From NCBI RefSeq assembly GCF_029784155.1, contig NC_073692.1, positions 70,134,012 through 70,198,011 of the forward strand: a DNA stretch of 64,000 nucleotides. Reading direction: 5' to 3'. The position numbers and the translations under genes were made by a program. The first letter of the stretch is position 1. Each line of letters begins with the position of its first letter. This DNA is from Uranotaenia lowii (taxonomy: Eukaryota > Arthropoda > Insecta > Diptera > Culicidae). Below are positions 15,061 to 48,174 of the stretch, piece by piece. The notes beneath the pieces are model-generated. The model saw only the letters and a list, made by a program, of their open reading frames with translations, was not told the DNA's origin and did not search any database.

Positions 15061-15790
15061 TTAAGAATTCAGATTCAGAATTCAGATTCAGAATTCAGAT
15101 TCAGAATTCAGATTCAGAATTCAGATTCAGAATTCAGATTCAGAATTCAGATTCAGAATTCAGATTCAGAATTCAGATTCAGAATTCAGATTCAGAATTC
15201 AGATTCAGAATTCAGATTCAGAATTCAGATTCAGAATTCAGATTCAGAATTCAGATTCAGAATTCAGATCCAGAATTCAGATTCAGAATTCATATTCAGA
15301 ATTCAGATTCAGAATTCAGATTCAGAATTCCGATTCAGAATTCAGATTCAGAATTCAGATTCAGAATTCAGATTCAGAATTCAGATTCAGAATTCAGATT
15401 CAGAATTCAGATTCAGAATTCAGATTCAGAATTCAGATTCAGAATTCAGATTCAGAATTCAGATTCAGAATTCAGATTCAGAATTTAGATTCAGAATTCA
15501 GATTCAGAATTCAGATTCAGAATTCAGATTCAGAATTCAGATTCAGAATTCAGATTCAGAATTCAGATTCAGAATTCAGATTCAGAATTAAGATTCAGAA
15601 TTCAGATTCAGAATTCAGAATTCAGATTCAGAATTCAGATTCAGAATTCAGATTCAGAACTCAGATTCAGAATTCAGATTCAGAATTCAGATTCAGAATT
15701 CAGATTCAGAATTCAGATTCAGAATTCAGATTCAGAATACAGATTTAGAATTCAAATTCAGAGTTCAGATTCAGAATTCAGATTGAGAAT
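15061..15790 (+). repeat. 13-bp satellite (GATTCAGAATTCA)n, array 2
   Basis: About 56 units in the same orientation as array 1, with marker variants (GATCCAG, CATATTCAG, CCGATTCAG near 15267-15330) that recur in array 4. This shows that the array pair was duplicated as a block. Confidence 0.95.
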
Positions 15791-16281
15791 TCAGATTTAG
15801 AATTCTGATTAAGAATTTGGATTAAAGATCAACCTGGAATTTGAAATTGGAACTTATATTCAAATATTAGACTAAGTGTTGTAACTCAAAATTCAAACTT
15901 TAGAATCAGAATAAGATTTCAGATTTAGTTTACAGAATGAGATTAATCATTTAATAGTCATATTACTTTCCCCTCCTTTTGTGGGAATTTTTCCTCTATG
16001 CATGGTTGAGCTCTAAAAAAGGTATCATGCTAGGGCACGCGTCACGGCTATCCATCAATATTGTAGTTGGTTTTACTTATTCAGTAAAAAAAAAGCATAA
16101 AAAAACAGTAAGATTCGAACCGTGACCAGCAACGTGAAAGTTCTGGTTGCTACCACGGCACCATTTCAGCGTGTTATAAATCTTGGAAATTCTACTGTTT
16201 AAATACCATTCTTTCCATACATAAAATGAGCTCCTTACATACCAGTTCGCTTTTCCCCAAAAAAACGTATCAGGCATCATT
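15791..16281. other. Spacer with tRNA-like segment, unit A
   Basis: Array remnants give way to ~470 bp of AT-rich sequence. On the minus strand at ~16108-16172, GGTGCCGTGGTAGCAACC (A-box-like) and GGTCACGGTTCGAATCT (B-box-like) form a tRNA-like SINE head. The equivalent in unit B is ~19555-19619. Confidence 0.6.
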
Positions 16282-17053: not shown

Positions 17054-17214
17054 TTTTACTCGTGTTGAAGAATGAATTTATGTTTTTTTTTTCATTTCTA
17101 CATACTCATACATAATTTAGATTCAATTTCAGATGCAGAATTCAGATTCAGTTTTCAAATTCAGGATACAGGTTTAGGAATCAGAATTCAGGATTCAAAA
17201 TTCAGAATTCAAAA

Positions 17215-17995
17215 TTCAGATTCAGAACTCATATTCAGATTCAGAATTTAGATTCAGAATTCAGATTCAGAATTCAGATTAAGAATTCAGATTCAGAATT
17301 CAGATTCAGAATTCAGATTCAGAATTCAGATTCAGAATTCAGATTCAGAATTCAGATTCAGAATTCAGATTCAGAATTCAGATTCAGAATTCAGATTCAG
17401 AATTCAGATTCAGAATTCAGATTCAGAATTCAGATTCAGAATTCAGATTCAGAATTCAGATTCAGAATTCAGATTCAGAATTCAGATTCAGAATTCAGAT
17501 TCAGAATTCAGATTCAGAATTCAGATTCAGAATTCAGATTCAGAATTCAGATTCAGAATTCAGATTCAGAATTCAGATTCAGAATTCAGATTCAGAATTC
17601 AGATTCAGAATTCAGATTCAGAATTCAGATTCAGAATTCAGATTCAGAATTCAGATTCAGAATTCAGATTCAGAATTCAGATTCAGAATTCAGATTCAGA
17701 ATTCAGATTCAGAATTCAGATTCAGATTCAGAATTCAGATTCAGAATTCAGATTCAGAATTCAGATTCAGAATTCAGATTCAGAATTCAGATTCAGAATT
17801 CAGATTCAGAATTCAGATTCAGAATTCAGATTCAGAATTCAGATTCAGAATTCAGATTCAGAATTCAGATTCAGAATTCAGATTCAGAATTCAGAATCAG
17901 AATTCAGATTCAGAATTCAGATTCAGAATTCAGATTCAGAATTCAGATTCAGAATTCAGAATCAGAATTCAGATTCAGAATTCAGATTCAGAATT
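17215..17995 (+). repeat. 13-bp satellite array 3 (unit B counterpart of array 1)
   Basis: About 60 GATTCAGAATTCA units with the same marker variants as array 1, slightly expanded. Confidence 0.95.
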
Positions 17996-18462
17996 TTTGT
18001 AAATTTATTTTCGGCATATCGGTGAAAAATTTAGATTCATGGAGAAAGAATATCAGAATTAAAAATTGATGAAGCTGGATGTTGCGAGGTAAAGTATGGT
18101 GTACGTTAATAAATTTTCCTTGCAAAAATGTTCTTTCGCTCTTTTCATCATCCGTAAAATTTCTCCTCACTTTATCAATTTTCAATTGTGGAATTGTTTC
18201 TCCAAGAATACCAATTTGCACAGTTTTTGATAAATTTGCGATGACTTAAAGATCATTACGCATGAAAACACGATTTTGTTTTGTGAAAACTTTTTTTCAC
18301 AATTTTTCTGAAATTAAGTTTGCTGCATACTTTTAGGGGTAAAACCATACTATTAAAAGTTGTAAAATCCGAAATCATAAAAAAAAATTTGGATGAAAGA
18401 AATTTCAATGTTGAAAACCGTGTGATGCAAAACAATCAAAATGAGATTTACAAGATTAAGAA
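17996..18462. other. Spacer between 13-bp arrays, unit B
   Basis: Counterpart of 14564-15060, lacking the 34-bp local duplication. No gene is seen. Confidence 0.6.
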
Positions 18463-19235
18463 TTCAGATTCAGAATTCAGATTCAGAATTCAGATTCAGA
18501 ATTCAGATTCAGAATTCAGATTCAGAATTCAGATTCAGAATTCAGATTCAGAATTCAGATTCAGAATTCAGATTCAGAATTCAGATTCAGAATTCAGATT
18601 CAGAATTCAGATTCAGAATTCAGATTCAGAATTCAGATTCAGAATTCAGATTCAGAATTCAGATTCAGAATTCAGATCCAGAATTCAGATTCAGAATTCA
18701 TATTCAGAATTCAGATTCAGAATTCAGATTCAGAATTCCGATTCAGAATTCAGATTCAGAATTCAGATTCAGAATTCAGATTCAGAATTCAGATTCAGAA
18801 TTCAGATTCAGAATTCAGATTCAGAATTCAGATTCAGAATTCAGATTCAGAATTCAGATTCAGAATTCAGATTCAGAATTCAGATTCAGAATTCAGATTC
18901 AGAATTCAGATTCAGAATTTAGATTCAGAATTCAGATTCAGAATTCAGATTCAGAATTCAGATTCAGAATTCAGATTCAGAATTCTGATTCAGAATTCAG
19001 ATTCAGAATTAAGATTCAGAATTCAGATTCAGAATTCAGAATTCAGATTCAGAATTCAGATTCAGAATTCAGATTCAGAACTCAGATTCAGAATTCAGAT
19101 TCAGAATTCAGATTCAGAATTCAGATTCAGAATTCAGATTCAGAATTCAGATTCAGAATTCAGATTCAGAATTCAGATTCAGAATACAGATTTAGAATTC
19201 AAATTCAGAGTTCAGATTCAGAATTCAGATTGAGA
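18463..19235 (+). repeat. 13-bp satellite array 4 (unit B counterpart of array 2)
   Basis: About 59 units, with the shared GATCCAG and CATATTCAG markers of array 2 plus a private CTGATTCAG variant near 18985. Confidence 0.95.
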
Positions 19236-19731
19236 ATTCAGATTTAGAATTCTGATTAAGAATTTGGATTAAAGATCAACCTGGAATTTGAAATTGGAAC
19301 TTATATTCAAATATTAGACTAAGTGTTGTAACTCAAAATTCAAACTTTAGAATCAGAATAAGATTTCAGATTTAGTTTACAGAATGAGATTAATCATTTA
19401 ATAGTCATATTACTTTCCCCTCCTTTTGTGGGAATTTTTCCTCTATGCATGGTTGAGCTCTAAAAAAGGTATCATGCTAGGGCACGCGTCACGGCTATCC
19501 ATCAATATTGTAGTTGGTTTTACTTATTCAGTAAAAAAAAAGCATAAAAAAACAGTAAGATTCGAACCGTGACCAGCAACGTGAAAGTTCTGGTTGCTAC
19601 CACGGCACCATTTCAGCGTGTTATAAATCTTGGAAATTCTACTGTTTAAATACCATTCTTTCCATACATAAAATGAGCTCCTTACATACCAGTTCACTTT
19701 TCCCCAAAAAAACGTATCAGGCATCATTTTT
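19236..19731. other. Spacer with tRNA-like segment, unit B
   Basis: Counterpart of 15791-16281, differing by a G/A change near 19695. Contains the tRNA-like segment at ~19555-19619 on the minus strand. Confidence 0.6.
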
Positions 19732-21002
19732 TTATATTGAGATTGGAATTTTTCGTGTTTGAATATCTGAAATCATACTTATATGATTCAGAGGGAAGGA
19801 ATCTATCATGTATATTCTATATTATTTTATATATTTCCAAATATAATTTAAACTCTGTTAGAAAGGCTCCAATCCACTGTTAAGTGTATTAAATCGGGTT
19901 TTTATATAGGCAAAATAGGTTTTTTATACAAAAAGTGTATTTTCAATCTTTTAAATCTCTACCAGTTCCACCGATTTCCCCGTTAATTTCAAATGGAAAT
20001 GGTACCGCTTATCATCAAAAATAATCACAAAAAAGGGGGTATTGCGAAAATGTGCACTTTTTGATGGAGGAGCCTTCATAAATTGCCAATAAAATACACT
20101 AAATGATTTCTATAGAGCTTCAGCAACTTTTAAACCCATCATAATGTATGAGACAATTGTAGATCGTGGCTTGTTACAACTTTGTTTCAAAGACAGCGAA
20201 CCATTTCATCCAATTTACAACGTGTCAGGTTCAAAAAACTGTTTTTTCATGAGATTTTTTTTTACTTTGACTGTAACTTCTGAGGGTGATGTGATGGGAC
20301 TTTGACATATTCAACAAACTTATGTATTTTGATTAAATAAACAACTTTGTCGAAGACATCAAAGCCCTAATTTGAAAAACAAAAAAGTTAGCATTTTTAT
20401 CTCGCTATTGGTGGACCCCTTGGCAAAAATTTTGATATTAGAATATGCTCCATGTAAAATTGAACAATGTTGCTGAAGACACCGAATGTCTATCTCTTCA
20501 TCCCTGGGCGCTATTAATTTCGTACAGCTAGATTGATGTTCTGCACCACTGTGCACTGTAAATCGTGAAGGTCTATAACAATCGTAGAAAAATGTCCCGT
20601 AACCAAATACCTTTCCATGCCATATATGTTTCCATTTGTTGGCTTCGTTAGCATTAATTGAGAACTTATGCTAACAAAATTGTATTGGGGTCACCTCCCT
20701 CCTCCTATGTACCTACTCACTGAAAGGAGGATGGTGTGTCAGATAATCATAGAATCATATCAAAATGCTTTTCCATGTTAAGTTTTGTCCATTTTTCGGA
20801 TTTTATAAAAAAAAAGTTAAATATAAGCTTTCCTCTTCCCTTCCTGTATTCCCAATTCTATTCTCTTATTGCCAGAAAGGAATTGTTTCACATAAGGCTA
20901 TGATTATTTAGTATCCGGGCACTTTATTTCAGTGATATCTACGTTAATAGAGCTCGGATATGCAAAACTTTAGTATCGTTGTGTTGGTTATGAAAAGGAC
21001 TA

Positions 21003-23088
21003 GGGTAAATGATCTTGAGCGGAACTAATTGGCTCAATTCGACGCAACTCGGAACAGTTGACCAAGCGGTATGGATAGGGTTTATATCCGAACGAATTTT
21101 TTAATAGTTCACCGGATAGATCTTGGTTTCTGCTTTCTAATGATAATTTGTAGAATATTTTAGAGTAAACCCTGATCACTCTAGAGCTGTTTTACTGAAG
21201 AAAGAATTCTGATCTTGAGCGGAACTAAAATATGATCTTGAGCGGAACCATTTTGTACTGTCAACATCTTTAATAGCAATCATTCCAAATCTTTGTAACT
21301 GTGAAAACTTCAATTAAATTTCATCTTTAAAGATTTTAAAGTTCGAAAATTGATGTTTTTACGTAAATAACAAAAACTTAGCCTTCCAAAGTTGTTCTCA
21401 AAATATCCGTTCAAATTTTTTTCTTACTTAAAAAAAGATTCACTTTGATTCACTGTATTTTGTTTTGAAAGAATAGATTCTCTAGACTCAAATTTTAGTT
21501 ATTTTATCTCAAAAATTAGGTTCGTTAGTGTATTTGAGTGATTATTTGAATGTGCGTGTTTAGAGTAATATTGCCCCGAACAAATTTTGAAGGTTACGAC
21601 ATAGTCAGTAATACAAAAGAAGATGCCTTAAATTACAGATTTTGCAAATAAAACTGTACATTGCTCTAAATCAAAGTGTTTTGAGAAAAAAAATCTGATT
21701 TTCTGTACTTTTATGTCAAAACTCAGTGATGGATTTCGGTGATGCTAATTCCTTTAATTTCATTGAAATTTTTTGATAAATTGCTTCTTTTTTTATATTT
21801 TAGTTGGGAAAACAGTTAACATTGAAATTTTTATCAAACTTTTCTAATTAAAAGTAAGAAATGTTAATAATTTTGGAAATCGATTAAAAATTCAAAACTT
21901 CTCTAAAATCTGTGAATATTTCAAATTTCTGTTTTCAGTGGCACAGATTCTATGATAAAAATTTGCTCAAAATTCTGTGAAATTTCAGATTTTTCTTTGA
22001 TTTCAGCATTCTTGCTCGAAACAACTTATTCATAGAACAAAGTTTACAATAAATTCCAGTTTCTTATGAATCACGATAAAATTAATTCATTTTTAAAAAA
22101 TATGGAAAGCATTTAGCTCAATAGATAAAACACTTATTTCCCAAACCGATTTCCATGAGTTCCAGCTCAAGTCTAAACATCAAACAGTAGGGAATCGGAT
22201 AGGTTTTCAATACCAGGCCACCAATTGAATCGTTAAGTATTATAAAATAGCTTACCAGATGTGCTTTGCATCACATCTGAACGAATTTGTGTTGAAAATC
22301 ATTTGAATTTTTGTTTATAGGTATATCGTTTTCAATTGGAATTTCAACATCAAGAACAACCTCTTTAAACGAATACTGCTTCTTGGAGATCGAATAGTAA
22401 TGGCTATGAAGATTGATTCTTATTTTGGAATAATGATTTTACTTTATTAGCTTCATTAGTTCTCGAAATATGCCAAAAAATATATATATGAAAGCCTTCC
22501 TCCACCTGACCGTCGTCCTTCTGAAAGAAAGAATCGAAAAACATTGCTTGTACTTGTACTAGTACTTGCAGGGTGTTGCTTACATTCAGGGGTAAAACCT
22601 GCGTGTGAGGCATAAGGCATAAGGCAGCGAACCTAGCGGTTTATTTCGGAAGCTAGTAGTTCCGCTCAAGATCAAAGATGGTTCCGCTCAAGATCATATT
22701 TTACTTTTAAATACTAAGCGATTAATTGATATTTTGATGGAAAACTCGTTACAAAAACCCGAATAATGCTTTTTTAAGAATTTTTCTACCATTTTAGTCA
22801 GTGAGAATCAGTTTATAGCGGCCAGGGGTTACATAAATTGACGTTCAAAGTCAGCATAGATTGATGAAAATTGCAGCAGAAATGCGTATGTTTTTAAATC
22901 TTCTAATAACATTAATTCAGTTAATAAATTTTAGCAAAAATGTCAAGGCTTATATGAAAAGATCTTGAAAAAGTGTTTTTTCAACATTTTGATAAAATTC
23001 ATAAACAATCATTGCCTAGATCTTAGGAAAAGTAAATGGTTCCGCTCAAGATCAGATTTCGACTAGTTCCGCTCAAGATCATTTACCC
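21003..23088. mobile_element. E1: TA-flanked element with seven GATCTTGAGCGGAAC motifs
   Basis: Perfect 25-bp inverted ends begin GGGTAAATGATCTTGAGCGG and are flanked by TA (21001-21002 and 23089-23090). The 15-bp core GATCTTGAGCGGAAC occurs forward at 21011, 21211 and 21234, and reversed at 22659, 22681, 23039 and 23066. Forward copies are confined to the left half and reversed copies to the right half. This is the arrangement of transposase-binding sites in IR/DR Tc1-type elements. There is no transposase ORF, so it is non-autonomous. Embedded within are a degenerate tRNA-like SINE head (~22104-22175) and an S-like start (~22244-22300). Confidence 0.8.
22104..22175 (+). ncRNA. Degenerate tRNA-derived SINE head
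   Basis: TTAGCTCAATAGATAAAACA resembles a D-arm with an A box, and GAGTTCCAGCTCAAG resembles a B box ~30 nt later. It lies in E1. No intact tRNA fold is apparent. Confidence 0.35.
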
Positions 23089-23925
23089 TATCTTGCCTAT
23101 TTTTGTTAGATTTTTAAGTTAACGTGTGTTTGAGATATTTACGAGGCAAAAAGACATGGTAAAAATAATTTTGCACAAATTTGCTCCTTTTACGCATTTT
23201 GCGCCTCGAAAATTCTTCATTGTTGGCTTGAAAGCTCATGAACTGTTATTTTTTCCTGATTTTTTTTTCGGACCAAATGGTTAAGAAGTATAAGGAACCA
23301 CTCTAGGGTGCTCACGAAGTTCAAACTAAGCATCTTAGTGGAACCCTTGATCTTAAATATGTAAAAAGTCTATGGTTATAGGGGATAACTGAATGCAGAC
23401 TCCTTAAATAATGCAAAAAATCCATTTCCGGCAGGCAAAAAGTGTTGCCTGACTTGTAGACACCAAGTAAATAACTAATAATGATCAGTTCCAAAGATTG
23501 TAATCTGTGCATCCGGTTTTTACATTATATGACAGATGTGATCTGATGGACCAAAAAATTTATGTTAAAACCAGATTTAAGAGATTAAATTCTTCGAGAT
23601 GTCTACTCATGAAAAGGTTCCAACACGATTCCAATTGCTTTTCCAGGTAAGTTTGTGTAAAATAGCATGATTTTGCAAAGGTTTTGCTTCTGTGGTAAAA
23701 AAAAATCAATACATGACTGAAAAAAGTGTGCATAGATAAAAAAGAGACTTAATGAAAAAGTTAGAGTATTTCTTGAAATCATTGATAAATATTTTATTTT
23801 ATATTTTTACATTAAATGTCATATTAACACCTTCATTTCCTCCATAGAAAGTTTTTCGATCAAATGAATAGTTTATAAAATACACACGTTTGTAACTGCC
23901 CGGATACTAAATGATCATAGCCTTA

Positions 23926-25330
23926 GAAAAGTTTCTCGTATTGAAATACCATCCCATGCCAACTTAATGTTCATAAAATTATTTTTCGTACTCAAATACT
24001 TTTTGATGCCAAATTTGGTTTCATTTGCTCGATTAATTCTCATGTTATGCAAAAAATTTGTATGGAAGCCCTCCTTTCCCCTTTCAAATCTTTCCGCTGA
24101 AAAAAAAGGTGGGGCTTCAATTTATAAAAGAAACATTTCTCGTATCAAAATACCCTCACATGTTAAATATGATTCCATTTGCTCCATCAGCTCTCCAGTT
24201 TTACTGAAAATTGTAAGGGAGACCTCTCCTCCCCCTTTTCATCCACCTCTTTGAAGGAATGAGGGATACCAAATATTGATAGAAGCATATCTCGTACCCA
24301 AATATCGTTCCATGCCAAATTTGATTCCATTTGCTGTTGAAGTTCTCAATGTTGTCGTGTCCTCCACCGAGCATTTCTCTACCGTGTTCCTATATTTTCG
24401 TCGGAGCTAGAAGAAGGGACACGTTAATCCCGCAAGCATACTCGTTTCACTGCCTCAGGCAATCAAACACGCCAGCCACCGAGATCTTCAATCGGTCGAC
24501 ACTCAGCCAAACACACACTCTCTCTCGCTCTTCTCTCGAGTTTTCGTTTTACTTCCCATATTCACCCATACTGACATCGACTCATACACTACAAATGTAT
24601 GCAGTAAAAATTGTATGAAACTCCCCTACCTTTTTCCTTTCTCCCCGCTGGAAGAAGGAAGGGGTCTCAAACAATCATTAGATTATATCACAGTCCCAAA
24701 TACCCGCTCATGCCAAATTTGGTTCCACTTGCTTAATAAGTTTTTGATTTATGTAAAAATTAATAAAAGAGGCCCCCTCCCCCTTTATATCTCCTGGAAA
24801 GAGGGAGGGGTCTCAAATAATCAGAAAAATACTTTTCGTATCCAAATACGCTCCCATGCCAAATTTGGTTCCATTTGCTTTATTAGTTTTTGAGTTATGT
24901 AAAAAATTATGAAAGAGGCCCCTCCCCCTTTCTACTGGAAAGAGGGAGGGGTCTCAAATAATCACTGACATATTTTTCGTATCCAAATACCCTCCCATGT
25001 CAAATTTGGTTCCAATATATTGATTAGTTTTCGAGTTATATGAAAAATTGTAAAGTAGCCTCCCTCTCCCCTTCCTATCACCCCACTGAGAGGAGGGAGG
25101 GGTACCTAATATTCATAGAAATATTCCTCTTTCCCAAATACCACCCCATGCAAAATTGGATACCATTGGCTTGATTAGTTTTCGAGCTATGCAAAAAATT
25201 GTCTTTTGTTTGGGAGACCCCTCCCCCCCTTCATGAGAGAGGGAGGGGTCTCAAACCATAATAGGAACCTTCCCCTGCCTCCAATACCCCCACCTGCCAA
25301 GTTTCACGCAAATCGGTTCAGTAGTTTCCG
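23926..25330 (+). repeat. ~147-bp tandem units of S copy 1
   Basis: Anchors similar to CATGCCAAATTTGGTTCC recur at about 24005, 24160, 24311, 24709, 24855, 24997, 25146 and 25293. Spacing is 142-155 bp once the 24353-24593 insertion is removed. Each unit carries CCCCTCCCCC..GAGGGAGGGG, a potential hairpin. Confidence 0.8.
24353..24593. mobile_element. Solo LTR-like insertion (241 bp, TG...CA, 5-bp TSD)
   Basis: Begins TGTCGTGTCCTCC and ends CATACACTACA, with AATGT on both sides (24348-24352 and 24594-24598). It interrupts a ~147-bp S tandem unit exactly. GC content and CT-rich tracts differ from the host repeat. Terminal TGT..ACA and a 5-bp duplication fit an LTR retrotransposon solo LTR. 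The family is unknown. Confidence 0.6.
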
Positions 25331-25344
25331 AGTCTATAGGGAGC

Positions 25345-25375
<31 letters not shown>

Positions 25376-26450
25376 AATTCATTTTTATATATATAGACTA
25401 GCTGATCCCATACGAACTCCGTTTCGCTTTCAGCTTGGAATATGTCATGAACAGTTTGTATGAAAGTCAATTGCCCAGCATTTTCCAGATTCATTGTTAA
25501 GTAATAATTGCAGAATATTGGACGATCACTTCGTCTGTCGTCTGCTAATAAATATGAAATCAGGAATCAAAAATCACGTGTATAAATTTCGACTAAATCA
25601 TTGCATAACAACGCAATTATTGCCAAAAAGCTAAACCCCTTTCGGGGGCTCTTATATAAACTTTGATATCTGAAATCGATTGCCCTTCCCTCAAAACTCC
25701 TGTGTGCAAATTTTCAAAGCAATCCATTGTATAATAACGTCAATTTTGCTAAAAATAGTGAAAAACAATTCATATGGCCACCCCTTTCGTCGACCCCTGA
25801 CAAAGTATTTGACACCTGAGATCGATTGTCCGTCCCTGATATCTACCGTGTGGAAATTTTCATCCCAATCCGATGTATAATAATGTCGATATTGCAAAAA
25901 TATTGAAAGATTTATATGGACGACCCCCTTTGCCGTCCCCTTAAACTGAATTGAATACCTGAAATCCATTGCTCATCTCTCAAAATTTTCTTCTGAATCC
26001 GATGTATAATAACGACAATATTGTATTATCAGTGAATAGTTAACATGGACGACCCCTTTGGCCGACCCCTGATTTTAGTTTGGATAAGTGAAATCAGTTA
26101 TTTGTCCCTAATAACTTCTATGTGCAAATTTTCATCCCAATCCGATGTATAAAAACGACAATATCACTAAGATACTGAAAATTTAATATGGACGACCCCT
26201 TTTCCCGGCCCCTTACACTAAATTTGATACCTCAAATCGATTGCACGTCACTCAAAACTATCGTGTACCAATTTTCATCTGAATACGATGTACAGGGTGA
26301 CAAAAAAGTCCGGTCACACAGCAAAATCTCAATATTTCAAAGAAAAAGAAGAAAATCTGAATTTGGCTTTCATTGCTTCATTCAGTAACTCATAAAGATA
26401 CTTCACAGACGATTTTTCGGAATTACACCACCTTTCTCTGATCGAACCAG

Positions 26451-26744
26451 CTACAGACGTCTCGGAAAGTCGTCGCAAGCGGCGCGCAACTCCATCGGCA
26501 TCTCGTCCCAGATTTTCGTGATAACTCGCTTGAATTGCTCCAAGTTTGTTATTTTATACTCGTTCAGCTTCGACATCATGTAGCCCCACACGAAATAATC
26601 CAGAGGATTCAGATCCAGAGACGACGGAGGCCATTCATCCTTCGAAATGAAAACGAACAGCTTCTCGTCCGAAAAAATAATCTCGTCATCTGCGCGCCAA
26701 ACCGAGCAGCGATAACAGCTGCCCTTAACTCTGCCATGGCTCAC
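26451..26744 (-). pseudogene. Truncated Tc1/mariner-type transposase fragment
   Basis: 97 codons joining two catalytic-domain blocks. IIFSDEKLFVF carries the second acidic residue region (SDEK). It runs directly into WPPSSLDLNPLDYFVWG, which holds the third, aspartate-type, catalytic position (NPLD). The DNA-binding domain and the sequence between the second and third acidic residues are deleted. The NPLD motif indicates a D-type third residue (mariner/maT-like) and not the Tc1 glutamate. It cannot be an active transposase. Confidence 0.8.
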
Positions 26745-26876
26745 AACTCAATGTAAACAAACTGCACAGAAACGAAACTCTGCCACTTTGGGCAGCAGAG
26801 TTAGCCCTTTCATTTGACATATAGATGGCACCAGAGAGATGCAACGTGTAGGCTACAGGCGACCCCAAAAAAGTGT

Positions 26877-27767
26877 TTTTTTTTTTTATTAGTTGATCAC
26901 CCAGGTGGTAAATCCTTTTTACGGATTGCATTCCAAGGCACGGCGAGCCACCGCGTCCCCCCAGTTTGCTACTCTGGGTCCATGGGTGCAATTGGACGAC
27001 TCATGATACTATGTACCCCTACGCCATAAAATCCACCTGGGGCCTCTGGTCATAATTCCCATCCGGACCGGCAACGAAGGCTTTACCCATGATGGGAGAC
27101 CATACTCGCGCAATGCGCTCCACGGCAAATACTCGTTTTATTCGTACTACACCAGCAATCTCAACCACTCTTTGTCACGATTCACGACTTACGGGTTGGC
27201 AGTCCGTTAGCCGCTACTCGTGACTCGAGTCCCACATGCGGCCTCTCGTCGCAATTCGTGACGTCATGACCCGCCTCTCCTCACGACTCGAGGCCCTCTC
27301 ACATTCCCCCTCTTGACACAAATTGAGGCGTCTATACCCACCTCTCCTCGTGTCTCGAGAGCCCTCGTTCATTCCGTCTCTTGACCCAATTCGAGACGAG
27401 AACAACTCGCCTCTCCTCGGGTCTGGAGATAATCACAAATCCCACTTTTTCTCCGTCTCGACACTTCGAGACCCATCCTGAGGCCCATCCAATGGGCACC
27501 ACATATTACGGCACAAGGCCCCTCTGCCCGTCGTGAGTCGGTCATATCCACGAATCAGGGCTAGGACCACCCGACGCGCGAATTCGACCAACACCCGCTC
27601 GAACATTTGGTCGTCCCGCATATCGGGGTCGCGACTACCCGATACACGTTACGACCCCTCCCTCTTGCAACTGAGCACTGGTACCAAGGTGCCCAGTCGC
27701 ACCACGTTTTTGTCCCACTCGGCACGCAGCCCGTCGGTAGCTGACTGTACCAAGTGTGACGTGTAGT
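26877..27767 (-). mobile_element. GC-rich poly-A retroposon with 15-bp target duplication
   Basis: A T-run at 26876-26887 marks a poly-A tail on the minus strand. The flanks ACCCCAAAAAAGTGT at 26862-26876 and 27768-27782 are identical. The ~890-bp body is strikingly GC-rich and carries three ~68-bp tandem units (CCTCTCCTCG-type at 27274, 27341, 27410 on plus). No recognisable RT domain. It is most likely a 5'-truncated non-LTR copy or a retroposed transcript. Confidence 0.8.
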
Positions 27768-28168
27768 ACCCCAAAAAAGTGTGACCGGACTTTTTTGTCA
27801 CCCTGTATAATAACGTCAATATCGCAAAAACAGCGAACAGTTAATATGGACGACCCCTTTGGCTGTTCCCTTACACAAAATTTGACACCTGAAATCGATT
27901 GCTCGTCTTTCAACACAGTCATGTGAAAATTTTTAACACAATCCGACGAAAAATAACGTCAATATCGTGAAAACAATATTTGTCTTGTATGGACGACCCC
28001 CTTCAGAAGGGATCATCCAAAAATCTGAAAACATTTTTCATCCTTCCTGGTCCTAATGAGTATCCATGCCAAATTTCAGCTCTCTAGCTCTTGAGACGGC
28101 TGAGTCTATAGAGGACAAACAAACAAACAAACAAACATACAGAAATTGCTTTTTTATATATATAGATA

Positions 28169-29056
28169 TAGATTCTTAATTTTTTTCAATAAGGAAAAAA
28201 AATTGTTTAAAAATAATTTTTGATCGATTAAACAATTAAAAAAAAAAACATGAAAAACATGAAAAATCTGATAAAAAGAATGAAAAAAAAAAAACACAAA
28301 AAACTGTCAAATAGGCATTGACTTTGAACACAAGAATGGCAGCCAAAATTTGCACTGATTTTTACAAAATTTCAGCTTAATAGAACATGATTCAGAGGTA
28401 CACCAAAGGGCTCGAAGTTACGATTCGGCAACATCGAAATTTTAATGTTGATGCCAAATGACAAAGAAATCTTTTAAACGTCGAGATCTGATGTGATTCC
28501 GAAAAAAAAACTGTTTCATATTTAAGAATTGGCCAGTGAAATAAATCACGAATCACTTCAAACCTCATGTTAACCATTTGAATGTTTCAAAGCATCAAGG
28601 ACTTAATTTTTAACTAGATTGGTCATTTTTTTCTACGCTAGTATCACCCTAAAAAGCAGGAAAAAATTTATGAGAAATAAGATCAAGTTTGAACAAAAAA
28701 TGACGAACATCTGTAGTTTCCAACGTATAATGGCTCTTTCCCCACATGCAGTGCAGGAGTGCGATTTGAAGAAGATGTGAAAGATAAAAAAAAATTCTAT
28801 TTTGAAATCGCCTAAACTTTTGATCATCGTATCTTAGAGGTTCCCGGTGTTCGGCAATGTTGTTCTTTGATTCTGACCAGTCTAATAGCTCGCCTACTCT
28901 AATTCTCAAAAAGTTTTGTTCTTGACCTACCTTTAAGAACGCTCTAAAAGATTCAGTTGTGACCATTTGGAATCGTTTTGAGACATTTAAGGATATTTTG
29001 CAGAAGATACTCTTATACTATACGCGCGATTTTCTAGGTTTAAATGCCTTATTGGA
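28169..29056. other. AT-rich noncoding region
   Basis: A-rich tracts near 28200-28310 and no ORF with recognisable domains. Confidence 0.5.
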
Positions 29057-29069
29057 AAGAGTATCACTT

Positions 29070-29137
29070 TTTTTTTTATTTAATCATTTATTTTTCTTTC
29101 GAAGGCTCGTTTGCTGTAAGGCCTAAGGAGCCGAGTG
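29070..29137 (-). mobile_element. 68-bp 5'-truncated retroposon tail
   Basis: A T-run at the left is a poly-A tail on minus. Identical 13-bp flanks AAGAGTATCACTT lie at 29057-29069 and 29138-29150. The body (..CTTACAGCAAACGAGCCTTC.. on minus) would be only the last ~60 nt of a non-LTR transcript. Confidence 0.75.
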
Positions 29138-29150
29138 AAGAGTATCACTT

Positions 29151-29689
29151 GACAGACCTAATTTCTTCACGGAAAGGCAGGTCATGTTGAAGGATGTTCA
29201 AATGAATTATTTAAAATATCCTTGAATTGAGAAACTCAATGTTTTAAGAGCTTCAGACCTCCAATAAACTCATAACATGACCCAAATAAAAAAAAAGTGT
29301 GAAAAATACATTTCAGTGAACAAGAACTCAGATTAACGATTTAGAAAAATCTCGACCAAGGTTCTTCTCATGTTATAAATTTTAAGAAAAAAATTTTAAG
29401 GATCGGATTGAGAGCAATGAATTGAGAGGACAGCTTAAAATTGAAAAGCGAGCTAAAAGGACAGTTGAAGTACTCTATCAAATTGTAAACCAAGCGGGTT
29501 GTAAAAACAGGTTGAAAAAGGAATAATTGAAAACTAAGCGGGACAGCAAAGAACGACTTATAGTGCGATGGCAGCTTAAGTTTGTTTTAAATTTCAAGTA
29601 AATTGAATCAACTTATTTTATATCAACAAAATAGGTTTAGATGGTAAATTGGAATAAAATTGAAATTTAACGAAAGTCGAGTAAACAGC
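29151..29689. other. AT-rich noncoding region
   Basis: No supported gene or recognised repeat. Confidence 0.4.
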
Positions 29690-30510
29690 TTGAAATTGGG
29701 CGGAGCTCTGGCGTGTTGGGAGGGTTCTTGTCCTTGGGAACCACCTGCACGTTGTTGGCGGCGTATCACTCCATGACCTTTTTACCGTAATGGCAAGATG
29801 CCAAATCCGGCCAAAACAGTACGGAACAACCATGTTTCTTCAGGAAAGGCAGCGGACGTTTATTCAAACACTCTTTCACGTAAATTTCTTGGTTGACAGT
29901 CCCAGAAGCTATAGAAATGCTGCTTTTCAAGCCACAGGTACAGATGGCTTGCCAAACCAGATATTTCTTCGCGAACTTTGACAGTTTCATGTGTGTTTTT
30001 CCCTTCCTATGCCGTATAAAACTCCTGTCATGGAAGCTGCTTGTAGTCGGCTTTGACGTAGGTTTCGTCGTCCATTACCACGCAGTCAAACTTCGTCAGC
30101 ATCGTCGTGTACAGCCTCCGGGATCGCGCATTGGCCGTCGTATTTTGTTTATCATCGCGATTTGGAGTCACTACCTTCTTGTAAGTCGATAGTCCGGCTC
30201 GTTTTTTGGCTCGATGCACGGTTGTAGACGATACACCCAGCTTATTTGCGGCATCTCGGAGAGAGAGGTTAGGATTTCGCTTGAAACTACCGGCAACTCT
30301 CTTTGTCGTCTCAGCGGCTTCCGGTTTTCGATTTCCCCCCGATCCAGACTTCCTGGCTGTCGACAAACGTTCCCCAAACACTTAAATTACATTTGTAACG
30401 GTTGATTTGGCAACTTTTAGCGATTTTGCCAGCTTTGCGTGCGAGTAGCTCGAATTTTCGCGATGCGCGAGCAAAATTTTGATACGTTGCTCTTCTTTCT
30501 TGGACGGCAT
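29690..30510 (-). pseudogene. Decayed ITmDD37E-like (Tc1/mariner superfamily) transposase
   Basis: The protein can be followed in order on the minus strand. N-terminal HTH: KKEEQRIKILLAHRE, then AKSLKVAKSTVTNVI. Second HTH: NPNLSLRDAANKLGVSSTTV. First catalytic Asp: VVMDDETYVKADYKQLP. Then KKYLVWQAICTCGLKSSI and the second Asp in LFWPDLASCHY. The end is PPNTPELRPI. Damage: a stop after ..STVTNVI (near 30382), stops after KQLP (near 30027 and 30003), a frame shift before KLSKFAKKYL, a stop in place of Trp after KKVME (near 29765), and RPIS where the catalytic Glu (RPIE) is expected. It is therefore inactive. The element's terminal repeats were not identified. Confidence 0.85.
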
Positions 30511-30576
30511 TTTGACAACTGAAGAGTGAATTCCAAAATCAAAATAGGAGCAACATTCTATAACACACACCTTCAA

Positions 30577-31260
30577 AATGAGGGGTGTTCAGGTTTTTTC
30601 AAGTTGATATTGACCAAATTTTGAGCGTATCACCCTTTAGGTTTAAAAACACTACGATCCAACTTGTCCTTATAGTGTAATAGAATTAGCTTTTACATAG
30701 TTCGCAATTTTTTTAGAACAATTGCCGCTTAAACTGCGTGAATTCTCATCGCAAAGGAACTCGGTGATCAAACAGAGATCAAATTTCATCAAAATATTCG
30801 TTCATCGGAGATTGAAAGTGAGTCGGAAATGATATGAAAGTATCGAGCACGCATTGTAGCAAAGTTCTTCGTATGAATCAAGGCATTGAAAGTTACATAT
30901 TGGCTGACAAAGAGAATCAACTGCCTAATTTCCTTTAGTGAACTTTATGTACTCATTAATGAACTTGAAAGTTGCAAAAGTGATTAAAATGTACGTTGTA
31001 TGTGACTTTTTTTGCCCGATTCCCATGAGTGAACTATATGTGCTCATTAACGAACTTGAAAGTTGCAAAAGTGATCTATACGTACGTTATACGGGATTTA
31101 AGTCACATAAAGGGCACAAAAATGCTCAATACGGGATTTGGTAAGTCACATGAAAGGCACAAAAATGCTCAAAAGATGGATTTGGTAAGTCACAAAAAGT
31201 GCATTGATGTGATTTCAAAATTAAATCACCACTTCGAGTTTTAGTTTCATTAAGAACAAC
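30577..31260 (+). repeat. Noncoding region with short tandem duplications
   Basis: A ~90-bp unit is duplicated (GAACTTGAAAGTTGCAAAAG at ~30961 and ~31050). Then a ~44-bp unit follows (AAGTCACATAAAGGGCACAA at ~31100 and a variant at ~31144, partial at ~31188). No ORF was recognised. Confidence 0.6.
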
Positions 31261-31265
31261 ATCTA

Positions 31266-31340
31266 GGCATGGTTTTGTGGTAGCGTGTTCGATTCTCACC
31301 ACGATGGTCGGGGTTCGATTCCCAAGCCGGGAAAGTTTTT
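31266..31340 (+). ncRNA. tRNA-derived SINE head
   Basis: GGCATGGTTTTGTGGTAGCG is A-box-like and GGTCGGGGTTCGATTCCC is B-box/T-arm-like, 30 nt apart. GCCGGGAAAG and a T9 run follow. The T-arm pairs well but no acceptor stem is formed, so this is a SINE 5' module and not a tRNA gene. The T-run could end pol III transcription. Confidence 0.65.
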
Positions 31341-31834
31341 TTTTCAATAATTAATTAAGTAATTGAGTGACCATTTTGATGGGATACATGTAGGAAATGT
31401 AGGAAAGAATCAATTGAGCTATTTGTCGAGTTTGGAATCCGGTACAGAACACAGTAAATAATCAAGAGAAGGTGATATGAACCGAAGCCAAGGGTTCAGT
31501 TGAGATAGAGAGAGATTTTTTGCTCATTTTGCGATTTTATGGAAGCTGAATTAAGAGGCCGCTGGAAGCTGAAAAGAAGATCATTAAGACTTGTTTTGGA
31601 ACTTGAAAGTATCAATAAGAACTTAAATTTTGAGCTGCATAGAACGTACTTCATATCAATGATGGGGCTGAGTAAGCGTTTTTGTACCTGTTTTATGGGA
31701 CTTTTGGTTGCTTGGGCAGTCCATTGATATAGGATGCATGGCATCAGCCAAGTAGAGGAGTTTTTTGAAACAAAAATAAACTTGTTGTCGATTTTCATAT
31801 TTTTTCTTGAAAACCTCAATTTTGTCAATTTTGT
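31341..31834. other. Noncoding region upstream of the satellite
   Basis: A 62-codon ATG ORF (31539-31727) has a poor start context and no recognisable similarity. I do not call it a gene. Confidence 0.4.
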
Positions 31835-32411
31835 CATTTTTTACATTTTTGACAGGTTTGTTGTTTCTTTCATTGGTTGTCAGTGTCACTCTGGCCATTT
31901 ATGTCAATTTTGTCATAAATTTATGGAAATTTTATAAATTTTGTCGGCTTTGCCAATTTTCACAGTTCTATTCTTTGTCATTTTTGCCATTTTTGTCATT
32001 TTTACCATTTTTGTTATTTTTGTCATTTATGTCATTTTTGTCATTTTTGTCATTTTTGTCATTTTTGTCGTTTTTGTCATTTTTGTCATTTTTGTCATTT
32101 TTGTCATTTTTGTCATTTTTGTCATTTTTGTCATTTTTGTCATTTTTGTCATTTTTGTCATTTTTGTCATTTTTGTCATTTTTGTCATTTTTGTCATTTT
32201 TGTCATTTTTGTCATTTTTGTCATTTTTGTCATTTTTGTCATTTTTGTCATTTTTGTCATTTTTGTCATTTTTGTCATTTTTGTCATTTGTGTCATTTTT
32301 GTCATTTTTGTCATTTTTGTCATTTTTGTCATTTTTGTCATTTTTGTCATTTTTGTCATTTTTGTCATTTTTGTCATTTTTGTCATTTTTGTCATTTTTG
32401 TCATTTTTGTT
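31835..32411 (+). repeat. 9-bp satellite (TTTTTGTCA)n with a decayed left edge
   Basis: 31835-31975 is decayed (TCAATTTTGTCATTTTTTACA and similar). From ~31977 to 32411 there are ~48 units, variable over the first six (GCC, ACC, GTT) and near-perfect after. It ends at TTGTTATTGCTC, about 55 bp before the first heat-shock element. Confidence 0.95.
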
Positions 32412-32466
32412 ATTGCTCAAGCGAATTGTCATTAACTTGAAGAATCTTGTGGAAAACCTCCAAAAA

Positions 32467-32484
32467 GAACATTCTCGAAATTTC
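32467..32484. promoter_or_regulatory. Heat-shock element 1
   Basis: GAACATTCTCGAAATTTC: four alternating GAA/TTC pentamer cores at exact 5-bp spacing, a perfect match to nGAAnnTTCn repeats bound by the HSF trimer. About -194 to -177 relative to the predicted start. Confidence 0.85.
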
Positions 32485-32511
32485 TATCGTTATAATAAGC
32501 CACGTGCTATC

Positions 32512-32529
32512 GAATGTTCTAGAATTTCC
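32512..32529. promoter_or_regulatory. Heat-shock element 2
   Basis: GAATGTTCTAGAATTTCC: three perfect cores plus one imperfect (TCC). About -149 to -132. Confidence 0.82.
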
Positions 32530-32557
32530 ACTCCATATGTTTCAATTTGTTCTCTAG

Positions 32558-32575
32558 GAAGGTTCCAGAACCTTC
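32558..32575. promoter_or_regulatory. Heat-shock element 3
   Basis: GAAGGTTCCAGAACCTTC: four perfect alternating cores, itself nearly palindromic. About -103 to -86. Confidence 0.85.
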
Positions 32576-32602
32576 CTTATTATATACTAGCTAGCTTACC
32601 GG

Positions 32603-32620
32603 GAATATTCGAGAACATTC
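32603..32620. promoter_or_regulatory. Heat-shock element 4 (proximal)
   Basis: GAATATTCGAGAACATTC: four perfect cores at -58 to -41, the position of the proximal HSE in Drosophila hsp70 promoters. It lies nine bases upstream of the TATA box. Confidence 0.88.
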
Positions 32621-32628
32621 GATAAGCT

Positions 32629-32664
32629 TATAAAAAGAGCCCCGCGTTGCGATGCGAGTCAGTT
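32629..32664 (+). promoter_or_regulatory. Core promoter: TATA box and initiator
   Basis: TATAAAAAG at 32629-32637 and TCAGTT at 32659-32664, a full match to the arthropod initiator TCAKTY. With +1 at A32661 the TATA box starts at -32, the canonical spacing. The GC-rich link CCCCGCGTTGCGATGCGAG is typical of hsp core promoters. Orientation points to the right, into the second array. Confidence 0.85.
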
Positions 32665-32726
32665 GAATCTAAGAATCCGCGGATTAAGTATCGTTATACC
32701 TTCCAAGTTGTAAAGTGTGAAGAGAA

Positions 32727-32759
32727 ATGGTGAAATATAGAGAAAAAATCTTAAGTTGA
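32727..32759 (+). CDS. 10-codon leader ORF in the putative heat-shock transcript
   Basis: The first ATG after the predicted start site has G at -3 and G at +4, a good initiation context, and encodes MVKYREKILS. Drosophila hsr-omega also carries a very short translated ORF near its 5' end. Short ORFs are common by chance, so significance is uncertain. Confidence 0.3.
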   Translation: MVKYREKILS

Positions 32760-32819
32760 AGTGTTGTGTAATCTTTAAATCTTCCGATTCCAAAATACAG
32801 TCCACTTGCCCAAACAGTT

Positions 32820-33117
32820 ATTTTTGTCATTTTTGTCATTTTTGTCATTTTTGTCATTTTTGTCATTTTTGTCATTTTTGTCATTTTTGTCATTTTTGTC
32901 ATTTTTGTCATTTTTGTCATTTTTGTCATTTTTGTCATTTTTGTCATTTTTGTCATTTTTGTCATTTTTGTCATTTTTGTCATTTTTGTCATTTTTGTCA
33001 TTTTTGTCATTTTTGTCATTTTTGTCATTTTTGTCATTTTTGTCATTTTTGTCATTTTTGTCATTTTTGTCATTTTTGTCATTTTTGTCATTTTTGTCAT
33101 TTTTGTCATTTTTGTCA
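32820..33117 (+). repeat. 9-bp satellite (TTTTTGTCA)n downstream of the heat-shock promoter
   Basis: About 33 units with no variant visible, the most homogeneous array in the window. It starts 159 nt after the predicted transcription start and ends at TTTTTGTCAAGGTATTG. Confidence 0.97.
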
Positions 33118-33286
33118 AGGTATTGTGCATCGCCCGTGTCCCCGTGTACTTTTTCCCTTCTTAGAGCAATCTGTGCTAGCACGTTGGGCGAAGGATGGGA
33201 CTTAGTTACAATCGCTATCAATGTATAAATTCGATGTGAGAATGTCCTTATGATTGACTCATTTAACTTCGGGCCGGACGGGGAAG

Positions 33287-33292
33287 AATAAA
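33287..33292 (+). terminator. Candidate poly-A signal of the satellite transcript
   Basis: AATAAA, with TCGGGTTTGTACC about 35 nt downstream as a possible GU-rich element. It is the first canonical signal on plus after the array. Confidence 0.4.
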
Positions 33293-33310
33293 CCAACCGG
33301 TTTAAAATCC

Positions 33311-36024: not shown

Positions 36025-37069
36025 TGTAGTAATGATGGGTAGAAATGAATATTTACAAAATATGGAAGGCTATAAGTGGTTGATACTAATACAGTTAAAG
36101 TGAGTAAAATCATACAGTAATTGTATGATGAGCATGTTCCACTGAGCGAATGTGATAAATAAGTTGAACATGCAGAATGTTCATGCTGTCAGTTTTGAGC
36201 TAAACATGAAAGAGAACTTAAGGGGGGGGGTAGGGTCTAACACTTTAAAAAAATCGATTTTTTTATTTTTTTATTTTCTTATTGTAAAACATTTCAAGAA
36301 TGTTGTGTCAAATTTTCAAGTCAATTGAAGCAAAACTGTAGAAATTATAGGCCTTTATCTCCTCCTATCTAATACTGCAAGAAAGCAAGAGCAGAAACTT
36401 CAAACGCGTTTTTCTCGAAAGCACATTTTTAAAGTCCGTGGACATCGTCATTTGAAAACTACTTATCCGATTCTTTTCAAATTTGGAACATATTTTCTAC
36501 ATATAAAATACCAGACCCCAACGTTTTTCTTTTTTGTTTTTTTTACTTTGGGAAGATTTTACAGGTGAAAAATGGCGGATTTTTTCGTGAAAAATCGTAA
36601 TTTTTACTTCGAACAGCCACAAAAATTTCATAAAATTTTTTTTAAGTTAAATAACAACGTTGGGGTCCAGAAAAACATCTATTAAAAATATTTTGCTCTG
36701 ATTTTTTGACTTCAGATGATTCTGTGCTGAGATACAGTGTCCACCGCAAATCCTGTTTTCTAAAAGGCATCCTCGAAAGTGCTCCGTCACCGGCTCATTT
36801 TTCAATATTTTTCAACGAAAAAATTACTAAATGTTCTTTTAACAATGCTTTATATAATGCAAAAAATTCGAATACATTTGTTTGAACGATAGCTCTAGAA
36901 AAAATTCGTGAAAATGGTGTTTTTATATACCCGTTAGACCCTACCCCCCCCCCCCTTAAAAGACAATAGCGAAAGAGAGAAGAGTAAGTTGTCTTTTTAG
37001 TTTTTTGTGTGCGAAAATCTGGAAGAAATTTTGAAGAAAATATCCGAGAAATCAGTGATGAGCACGACA
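36025..37069. mobile_element. Solo LTR (TG...CA) with 5-bp TSD, carrying a TTAA MITE
   Basis: Starts TGTAGTAATGATGGG and ends GATGAGCACGACA. The target duplication GCTTT is at 36020-36024 and 37070-37074. After removing the 738-bp TTAA insert the LTR is ~307 bp. It lies inside the non-LTR ORF2. A copia-like origin is a guess from length and end motif. Confidence 0.75.
36218..36959. mobile_element. TTAA-flanked MITE, copy 2
   Basis: The 734-bp insert 36222-36955 lies between TTAA at 36218-36221 and 36956-36959. The G-run/TAGGGTCTAAC and GTTAGACCCTAC/C-run ends are as in copy 1, and the interior is nearly the same sequence. No ORF. Confidence 0.85.
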
Positions 37070-37461
37070 GCTTTATTGCTTGATTGTCAGAAGCATCCTT
37101 GAGTTCGCAGCTCCTGTTTGGACCCCGTACCAATCGACACTAAGTCAATCCATTGAAGATGTTCAACGAGCCTTTATCCGCTTCGCTTATCAGAGACATA
37201 GATGGAATTCTGAAATCGCTACTCCATACGAATATCGCTGCAACCTTATACATTTAGATACGCTTGCCCAGAGAAGAAATTTTTTACAGTGTTTGTTCAC
37301 ATACGACATATTGAGCGGAATCATCGACAATAGCGAACTCTTACAAAATGTAAATTTGTCCGCCCCTACAAGGTCACTCCGACAACAGCAGTTCCTCTGG
37401 ATTCCCAGTCATCGGACTACTTATGGTTTCTACAACCCTTAGGACACGTGCAATCACTACT

Positions 37462-41786: not shown

Positions 41787-43855
41787 TACAGATCTTGGTC
41801 ATTCTAAGAAGGGAAAAAATACCTTTGGACTTTGTGGAAGTGTTAAATTGCCTTATTAGTAAGAAATTTAAATTGTAGCCACGTTCTCCATTGGAGTGAT
41901 CAGTTTTTCAGTAGGCGCTTAAGAAACGTGTGACTTCAATTGACAGTCTTTGGTACCTTCTAAACTTCTGTTTGACATCAATATTTCACAAAATAAATTC
42001 AATCGTAATATAAATCATGTTGATGCCGCATGAAATCCGAATCAATCTCTCCCTCGATTTTACATCATACAAATATGAATTATGAAACCTCAAACTAACC
42101 TATATTAAGAAATTAAAAAACAAATAGATCCAATTTAATTTAATTTGGTTTGAAATCTATCACATCGGCCGTAAAAAGATTCAAGTGCATACTACCTAAC
42201 AGAAATTGCATATGAAAATTTTAAGTTTTCATAGTTCGAATTCCGTTTTAAAAACTTTTTAAAGATTCCTAAATTCAAGTTATGTAATGCATTAATAAAA
42301 CACAAGAGATTCCAGAGCAACAATAAATCAAAAGAAGAAATTGTGGGCAGCCTATTTGTAATATTTGCGTTCCTTATGAGTTTTTTTTTTCAAATCGATG
42401 TTTGAACATTAGGAACGAAATCTGTATCGTTTTTTCGTGAATTTGCCACTTAGTGGCATTCTTCCCTAAAATCTGCATCGTTGAATGATTAAAAGATAAT
42501 TTTTAGATTTCAAATAATTATCTCTTGTTCATGTAGGTCAGTTGCTTCATCAGTTTTCATTGATCGATTAAACTCTAAACTAATTAGTTTTCTGACAAAA
42601 TATCGAGTTAAGGACGCAAAAATTTTCAAATTCAGTTTACCTATGTTTTATATTTTCCCTTGTGGATTAAAACTTTATCGTTATCAGTCGATTATTTTTT
42701 CGGCAACAAGGCAATCCATCAAGCTAACAATCGACAGAGCTTTTTGTGACTGACTTATACTGCTGGATTTCAAGATCTACACCATATAAATCGCCGAAAC
42801 TGCTTTCAGCTCATTCACATAATGATTTTGAAATTTTAAATTAAAATCCAGTTTAGGGTTTGATACATCTACATCTGAAAGTCTGGCTATTTCAATCGCA
42901 ATTTATAAATACTCTTCACTGAATTAACCCTCCATGACTTCATTCCATGTTTTTCATTATAAATCAATATCATTTCAAGAGTTTGGAATAATGAATAGGT
43001 ACCTACATGAAAAAAAAAACGGTTTTTCACTTTCTTTATAATTTATTTTTTTCTATTTCATTTGTTTCAGTACAATTAAAATTGAAAATTTTGTATTATA
43101 TCCTGAAATTCAAGAGCAAATCAATTGAAATTAAGTTCCAAAAGCTTTATACTTCAGTATCTGATTTTGATCATCTTATTATCAACTAAATTTATAGTTG
43201 GAGTGTTGATTTTTTATATTGAGAATTTGAAAAATCAAAACCAGAATTTTGAACAAGGATTGTGTTTCCAAATTGAAAAAAATATTACGAAATTTCCAAA
43301 CCACTATTCAGTAAATTACTTCAGTGATAAATTTAATCAGCGTTAATCAGTTTGAAATTCATAGCAAATATTAACTAAAACTCATCTCAAAACTAAACTT
43401 TTGTTTGGTCTAGCACTAATATTCAGAACAACATCGTGTGTATAATTTTCATTTGTAAAATTACATATATAACAAGAAATTCGTAACAGATCTTTGAAAG
43501 TGACAATTTAAAACTACCAGATAACAAATTATGACAATTTTCTTTTTATCAACTTTTTTGCAGGGAATATTATAGATTTGCTAGTTGTTCTATAATTACT
43601 GAAAAAGTTTGTTATAAGATTTCATAATTCTTCACTTGTTTCATATTTTTCGAAATACATCTGATTTTGTTCAGTGAAATTGAAGTGGGGGAAGAGAAGG
43701 ATCAGTGTGCAGCTTATATTGTACTCATTTGAAAGTAGCAACCCTAAACTCCCCCACCCTCCCCCTCTTTTCGCTTTTTCAAATCGATCGTTTTTTCACC
43801 AGATATTACGATCCTTCATATTGACTGATTTTTGAAAATTTGGAAAATCACCCCT
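41787..43855. other. AT-rich noncoding region
   Basis: No supported ORF. CATTAGGAACG at ~42408 and GTTCCTTATGAG at ~42370 belong to a motif set that recurs at 46334-47490. Confidence 0.45.
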
Positions 43856-47674: not shown

Positions 47675-48174
47675 NNNNNNNNNNNNNNNNNNNNNNNNNN
47701 NNNNNNNNNNNNNNNNNNNNNNNNNNNNNNNNNNNNNNNNNNNNNNNNNNNNNNNNNNNNNNNNNNNNNNNNNNNNNNNNNNNNNNNNNNNNNNNNNNNN
47801 NNNNNNNNNNNNNNNNNNNNNNNNNNNNNNNNNNNNNNNNNNNNNNNNNNNNNNNNNNNNNNNNNNNNNNNNNNNNNNNNNNNNNNNNNNNNNNNNNNNN
47901 NNNNNNNNNNNNNNNNNNNNNNNNNNNNNNNNNNNNNNNNNNNNNNNNNNNNNNNNNNNNNNNNNNNNNNNNNNNNNNNNNNNNNNNNNNNNNNNNNNNN
48001 NNNNNNNNNNNNNNNNNNNNNNNNNNNNNNNNNNNNNNNNNNNNNNNNNNNNNNNNNNNNNNNNNNNNNNNNNNNNNNNNNNNNNNNNNNNNNNNNNNNN
48101 NNNNNNNNNNNNNNNNNNNNNNNNNNNNNNNNNNNNNNNNNNNNNNNNNNNNNNNNNNNNNNNNNNNNNNNNNN
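47675..48174. other. Assembly gap (500 N)
   Basis: Exactly 500 N, a placeholder of unknown real length. Apparent ORFs across it are meaningless. Confidence 1.

Follow-up and report, generated by a model that had tools for sequence, protein, structure and literature searches.

Heat-shock elements (HSEs) in LTRs or in other ends of mobile elements are already known from ONSEN, DIRS-1, Helitrons, Copia and mariner. ONSEN (COPIA78), a heat-activated LTR retrotransposon of Arabidopsis, has an nTTCnnGAAn element in its LTR and is under the control of heat-shock factor (HSF); its LTR has been likened in length to others of 376 and 406 bp (PMC3907296). A review describes Copia and mariner of Drosophila as elements that respond to temperature and contain sequence homologous to Hsp promoters (PMC7334843), DIRS-1 of Dictyostelium has a heat-shock promoter within its terminal repeats (PMC2685390), and Helitrons carry and spread HSEs in Caenorhabditis (PMC6927752). 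Heat-induced repeat and noncoding RNAs have been described as well. Human SatIII is transcribed upon heat shock under HSF1, with putative HSEs over the repeats themselves mentioned as an unpublished observation of the authors, and Drosophila hsr-omega is a heat-induced, repeat-containing RNA of a single-copy gene that is associated with omega speckles (PMC9032817). TCAST1 is a major pericentromeric satellite of Tribolium with small RNAs or effects that are altered by heat stress (PMC4537270, PMC9032817), and Dt-Ps-hsp70 of the dipteran Diamesa tonsa is a heat-induced noncoding RNA from an hsp70 pseudogene (PMC7117718).

Here, we analyzed a locus of Uranotaenia lowii in which a heat-shock promoter faces an array of the 9-bp satellite TTTTTGTCA; "the window" denotes the whole 64-kb stretch of DNA under study. 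A sequence-only reading had proposed the locus as an independently evolved stress lncRNA resembling hsr-omega or SatIII. The strong heat-shock promoter facing a satellite, with no Hsp frame found behind it, withstood our analysis, but the independently evolved gene did not, in view of the TG...CA ends, GTTAT repeats, TCAKTY-type initiator and GT-rich stretch of the promoter block, a satellite of ordinary homogeneity, an AATAAA at chance frequency, and no excess of RNA structure or Rfam match. Our preferred reading, which we consider evenly balanced between right and wrong, is that the block is the solo LTR of a heat-responsive LTR retrotransposon, and that HSF-driven read-through from it would yield a U-rich satellite RNA of ~0.65 kb under heat. 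The features are listed in Table 1.

Table 1. Features of the promoter block and the surrounding satellite (window coordinates).
Feature	Position	Strand	Evidence or remark
Upstream half of TTTTTGTCA array	31974-32412	+	Same orientation as downstream half; left edge decayed
Left GTTAT flanking direct repeat, candidate target-site duplication	32409-32413	.	
Inserted block, TG...CA, best read as a solo LTR	32414-32816	+	End structure
Four-HSE cluster, candidate U3 enhancer	32467-32620	+	4+3+4+4 cores
HSE 1	32467-32484	+	4 perfect cores; script search
HSE 2	32512-32524	+	3 perfect cores; script search
HSE 3	32558-32575	+	4 perfect cores; script search
HSE 4	32603-32620	+	4 perfect cores; script search
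TATA box TATAAAAAG	32629-32637	+	First T at -32 from A+1
Initiator TCAGTT	32659-32664	+	Predicted start A (A+1) at 32661
Unique leader, candidate R-U5	32661-32816	+	Less structured than shuffles
AATATA (32734), then GT-rich GTTGAAGTGTTGTGT (32755-32769); possible LTR polyadenylation region	32734-32769	+	
Right GTTAT flanking direct repeat	32817-32821	.	
Downstream half of array	32821-33117	+	33 perfect TTTTTGTCA units; first T common to flanking repeat
3' flank of array (tail)	33118-33310	+	GC 45%; AATAAA at 33287; read-through RNA may end here

Several features are read directly in the DNA: the promoter motifs and their order, satellite to either side, ends of the form TG...CA, and a GTTAT repeat at each flank. 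All four HSEs begin with GAA, and their start-to-start spacing of 45, 46 and 45 bp recalls the regularity of LTR enhancer repeats. They hold 15 perfect cores in total, only HSE 2 being without a fourth. Arrays of at least four cores were in strong excess over what 100 first-order Markov simulations of the window gave (3 observed vs. a mean of 0.07 per simulated window), and arrays of at least three cores numbered 5 vs. a mean of 2.13, the fifth being a three-core array outside the promoter at 59933. The largest cluster of arrays of at least three cores within 170 bp comprised four, whereas the simulated windows gave none (12 times), one (87 times) or two (once). The four HSEs of the sequence-only reading, three with four cores and one with three, were thus recovered by script at a density far above chance, and its TATA box at -32 and TCAGTT at +1 were found as claimed. 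TCAGTT fits TCAKTY, which has been described as an LTR initiator motif (PMC3601003), and the core promoter, the TATA box and this TCAKTY-type initiator, sits within the 403-bp block. Origin of the enhancer by a 45-bp tandem duplication is not shown, since the 25-bp spacers between HSEs are not clearly similar to one another (146 of 2000 shuffles did as well).

The earlier description of the satellite was sound for the downstream half, where all 33 invariant units were found again, and had missed that this array continues, with unchanged orientation, on the upstream side of the promoter. Tandem Repeats Finder reported the upstream half as 49 copies with 96% matches (31974-32414), and 41 of the 47 in-register units starting between 31990 and 32404 are perfect. 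With satellite on both sides, the promoter and leader are a 403-bp interruption of one array, rather than a promoter that merely precedes an array. The TTTTTGTCA unit is without a GAA/TTC core, and the four clustered HSEs are confined to the inserted block. In the predicted RNA, the downstream half would contribute 33 UUUUUGU sites. A stretch of 33 perfect units is ordinary for the window, since the array at 5.5-7.9 kb has perfect runs of 52, 46, 34, 53 and 30 units, which lie at 5.7-7.8 kb. That long TTTTTGTCA array (~273 units) is followed within 20 bp by an array of a related satellite in the opposite orientation, ACAAAAATT, the two spanning 5461-8143. Elsewhere, two AATTCAGATTCAG arrays ~3.35 kb apart (13763-15814 and 17115-19261) have near-identical unique interruptions, such as the HTFRGKTILLKVVKSEIIKK frame present in both, which suggests a recent segmental duplication. 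A literature search for TTTTTGTCA-type satellites by repeat letters gave no report among the matches listed, at the level of titles and abstract beginnings.

The case for an LTR is a structural one. Excision of 32414-32816 together with one GTTAT restores the 9-bp register as one continuous array, ...TTTTTGTCA TTTTTGTTA TTTTTGTCA..., in which TTTTTGTTA is a variant unit with six + strand occurrences in the window, two of them in the promoter-flanking array. This carries almost no weight, because the array is periodic and a register-restoring repeat of 4-6 bp arose by chance in 72% of simulated blunt insertions and in 74% of simulations with independent array ends (40,000 each). The unit itself contains both TG and CA, and a 4-6 bp repeat combined with TG...CA ends occurred in 6.3% (blunt) and 3.1% (independent ends) of simulations. 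The terminal sequences are more informative. TGCTCAA and CCAAACA match the LTR end consensus TGTTRNR...YNYAACA (PMC3601003) at 5/7 and 6/7 positions, 11/14 overall, the 5' TGCTC deviating from TGTTR. Adding at least 11/14 matches to the simulated requirement reduced the frequency to 1.25% (blunt) and 0.47% (independent ends) of 60,000 simulations each; these used 60-bp inserts, and so concern the ends only, and the consensus test was settled on only once the TG...CA ends had been noticed, for which reason the statistics are suggestive rather than proof. In Culex, tabulated LTRs other than those of Osvaldo measure 119-444 bp with duplications of 4-6 bp, ranges that include the 403-bp block and its 5-bp flanking repeat, and solo LTRs, together with rearranged elements, make up many insertions (PMC3286476).

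Inside the candidate R-U5, the GT-rich stretch begins 21 bp after AATATA, an arrangement that fits a weak polyadenylation region. AATAAA is absent from this part of the block; the signal is well conserved in Metaviridae LTRs and less clear in Zam (PMC3601003). Within the 64-kb window we found no second copy of the block, internal region, primer-binding site or full element, the best other match being 68% over 63 nt of leader (49688-49750, E 0.009). Five of six block patterns were without a match among viral contigs, and one pattern was without a match among prokaryotic contigs, absences that say little in a collection of viruses and prokaryotes. The pattern of an LTR end plus TGG matched two viral contigs (L001 and L002); the surroundings of the L001 match (1101 bases) are unrelated, and it was taken as chance. 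A short element with terminal inverted repeats was rejected, none being visible by eye at the block ends, and the 25 of 90 pairs listed by an inverted-repeat search were largely satellite pairings plus the HSE palindrome. Inverted ends ACAGGGTGACAAAAAAGTCCGGTCACAC / GTGTGACCGGACTTTTTTGTCACCCTGTA enclose ~1.5 kb of GC-richer sequence at ~26292-27807, probably a DNA transposon that lies within another repeat, and decayed transposase remains on the - strand at ~30.2-30.5 kb, presumably Tc1/mariner-like, gave weak HTH matches below Pfam cut-offs.

A promoter of this kind could also have come from an Hsp gene, its 5' end (~-247 to +156) having been copied into the array by repair or recombination. 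Heat shock would then switch on the satellite from such a block without any mobile element being involved, and we regard this origin as unlikely, though deserving of serious consideration. The four strong HSEs and the spacing of TATA box and initiator suit an Hsp promoter. Hsp leaders are A-rich and little folded, and the leader here is 37% A, with a folding z of +1.78 (at least as good folding in 197 of 200 shuffles) that lies above 146 of 150 background segments (4 of 150 as high). This lack of structure counts against the LTR, in that it also suits an Hsp mRNA. On the other hand, an upstream ATG with a short frame is uncharacteristic of Hsp leaders, and the ATG at 32727 (+67) opens a frame of 10 codons before a stop, unlike any Hsp start; it is thus ill-suited to an Hsp leader and counts for the LTR. 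Moreover, LTR-consensus TG...CA ends beside a direct repeat would then be a coincidence of 0.5-1.3%. Remnants of Hsp coding sequence likewise failed to appear. Pfam identified no Hsp domain in the three + frames over 33118-~47673 and 48175-~63001, a coverage that stops before the window's last kilobase, and this agrees with the earlier claim that no Hsp reading frame follows the promoter; nor was one identified in two of the three - frames over 17500-32466. The same scans of the + frames gave no support to an Hsp exon reached through an intron in the 5' UTR. The sole downstream match on the + strand was DUF7688 (E 0.11), and the - strand of 17500-32466 gave HTH matches of a decayed transposon (best E 0.00018), all under curated cut-offs. 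Badly decayed Hsp pieces could escape such a scan, since it missed the + frame at 37062-37442, which we take to be retroelement-like. The interval between the two scanned ranges (47675-48174) consists of 500 N, probably an assembly gap. At the other end of the window, two long open frames on the - strand (2326-4206 and 8823-10853; 626 and 676 aa) look to us like ionotropic receptors; the 626-aa frame alone has a weak Pfam Lig_chan match, under cutoff, and for the ORF at 8826-10850 no relative was found in a protein search among the 7998 candidates scored.

Promoter, leader, satellite and tail could conceivably be parts of a single gene under selection that functions analogously to hsr-omega or SatIII, its 33 UUUUUGU sites titrating U-tract RNA-binding proteins under stress, but we consider such a gene distinctly unlikely. 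The intact promoter does face a repeat providing 33 U5GU sites, and the tail, at 45% GC, is richer than its surroundings (93rd percentile of 3157 windows). Nevertheless, the same array lies upstream of the promoter, so that the satellite is not specific to the transcript, and its homogeneity is ordinary for the window. Neither leader nor tail (folding z of the latter, +0.25) showed excess RNA structure or an Rfam match up to E 1. The AATAAA noted by the sequence-only reading is present after the array, but one is to be expected there by chance: 93 occur on the window's + strand, ~1 per 690 bp, and this one lies 626 bp from the predicted start. Splicing of the satellite as an intron was not supported either. 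With a scoring table entered by hand, the best leader donor reached 4.1, under the 4.7 that marks the top 5% of GT sites in the window; the donor CAAG|GTATTG after the array scored 3.1, and the highest score of the predicted transcript, 6.3, belongs to a site in the tail (33236). The tail has no strong second copy within the window and was rejected as a dispersed repeat, its best match being 20 bp long (41803-41822, E 0.038). A still less probable case is that the block, whatever its origin, is heterochromatic and gives no RNA in the animal. Satellite flanks favour silencing, and the block has such flanks in a repeat-rich stretch with transposon remains; against a silent relic, the block has its TATA box and initiator together with fifteen perfect HSE cores.

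Returning to the solo LTR, from the features described we infer LTR identity, HSF binding, transcription, read-through and a 3' end as one sequence of events. An LTR with a four-fold HSE enhancer in its U3 would have inserted within a pre-existing TTTTTGTCA array. Under heat stress, HSF would occupy the four HSEs, and transcription by Pol II would begin at ~32661, directed by the TATA/initiator pair; the transcript would leave the LTR, pass through the 33 TTTTTGTCA units, continue into the sequence 3' of the array, and may end near the AATAAA at 33287. An intact copy of the element would use this promoter to produce its genomic RNA in heat stress, as ONSEN does. Heat-induced transcription of the satellite at this locus is a fair prediction. 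Since the block ends resemble a solo LTR more than a stress RNA gene, any such RNA may be a by-product of a mobile element, an accident rather than an evolved hsr-omega-like gene. Alternatively, a heat-inducible solo LTR that captured a satellite may have created a new stress satellite RNA, an analogue of SatIII or hsr-omega at its birth, with the 33 U5GU repeats acting as a sponge for U-tract proteins, a scenario to which we assign only a small likelihood. The sponge role is speculation; the TIA-1 and ELAV families of U-tract-binding proteins are those we would presume to bind UUUUUGU sites.

If the block is indeed an LTR, an element of this genome has brought its own promoter under heat-shock control by means of a strong, regularly spaced HSE enhancer, and its solo copies would act as portable heat-shock promoters. 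A solo LTR inside a satellite would then offer a concrete route to satellite RNAs induced by stress, the origin of which is otherwise obscure, and, should the locus represent such an RNA at birth, a general route by which RNAs of the SatIII and hsr-omega type arise. A captured Hsp promoter would be a rarer mechanism. Among the matches listed in searches of the literature, there was no mosquito LTR with HSEs (CC-licensed PMC text) and no LTR-like heat promoter inside one satellite array, which is no proof of absence.

On the condition that the block is an LTR, its HSEs would constitute an ONSEN-type heat-responsive promoter, in that HSEs in the (putative) LTR would put a retrotransposon promoter under heat-shock factor. 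ONSEN, as described in the source cited above, is a copia element of plants that has full-length copies and lacks CG in its LTR, and for which binding of HSFA2 has been demonstrated, whereas the present case is a putative solo LTR that contains CpG. Copia and mariner resemble the block in being described as elements with Hsp-promoter-like sequence, and four regularly spaced strong HSEs are not part of the review's description of them. DIRS-1, in the account cited, is a tyrosine-recombinase element with inverted terminal repeats, not an LTR with TG...CA ends and a target duplication, and the Helitrons of Caenorhabditis are described as DNA transposons, whose ends differ from those of the block. 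Compared with the account of SatIII, the HSEs lie outside the repeat unit, only in the insert, and the cited descriptions of SatIII and hsr-omega mention no promoter block of the insertion type that would separate two halves of one array. Dt-Ps-hsp70 is reported as hsp70-derived, whereas no hsp coding remnant was found in the frames scanned here. The predicted RNA would resemble that of TCAST1 as a heat-responsive insect satellite RNA, with the difference that the available description of TCAST1 implicates no LTR promoter.
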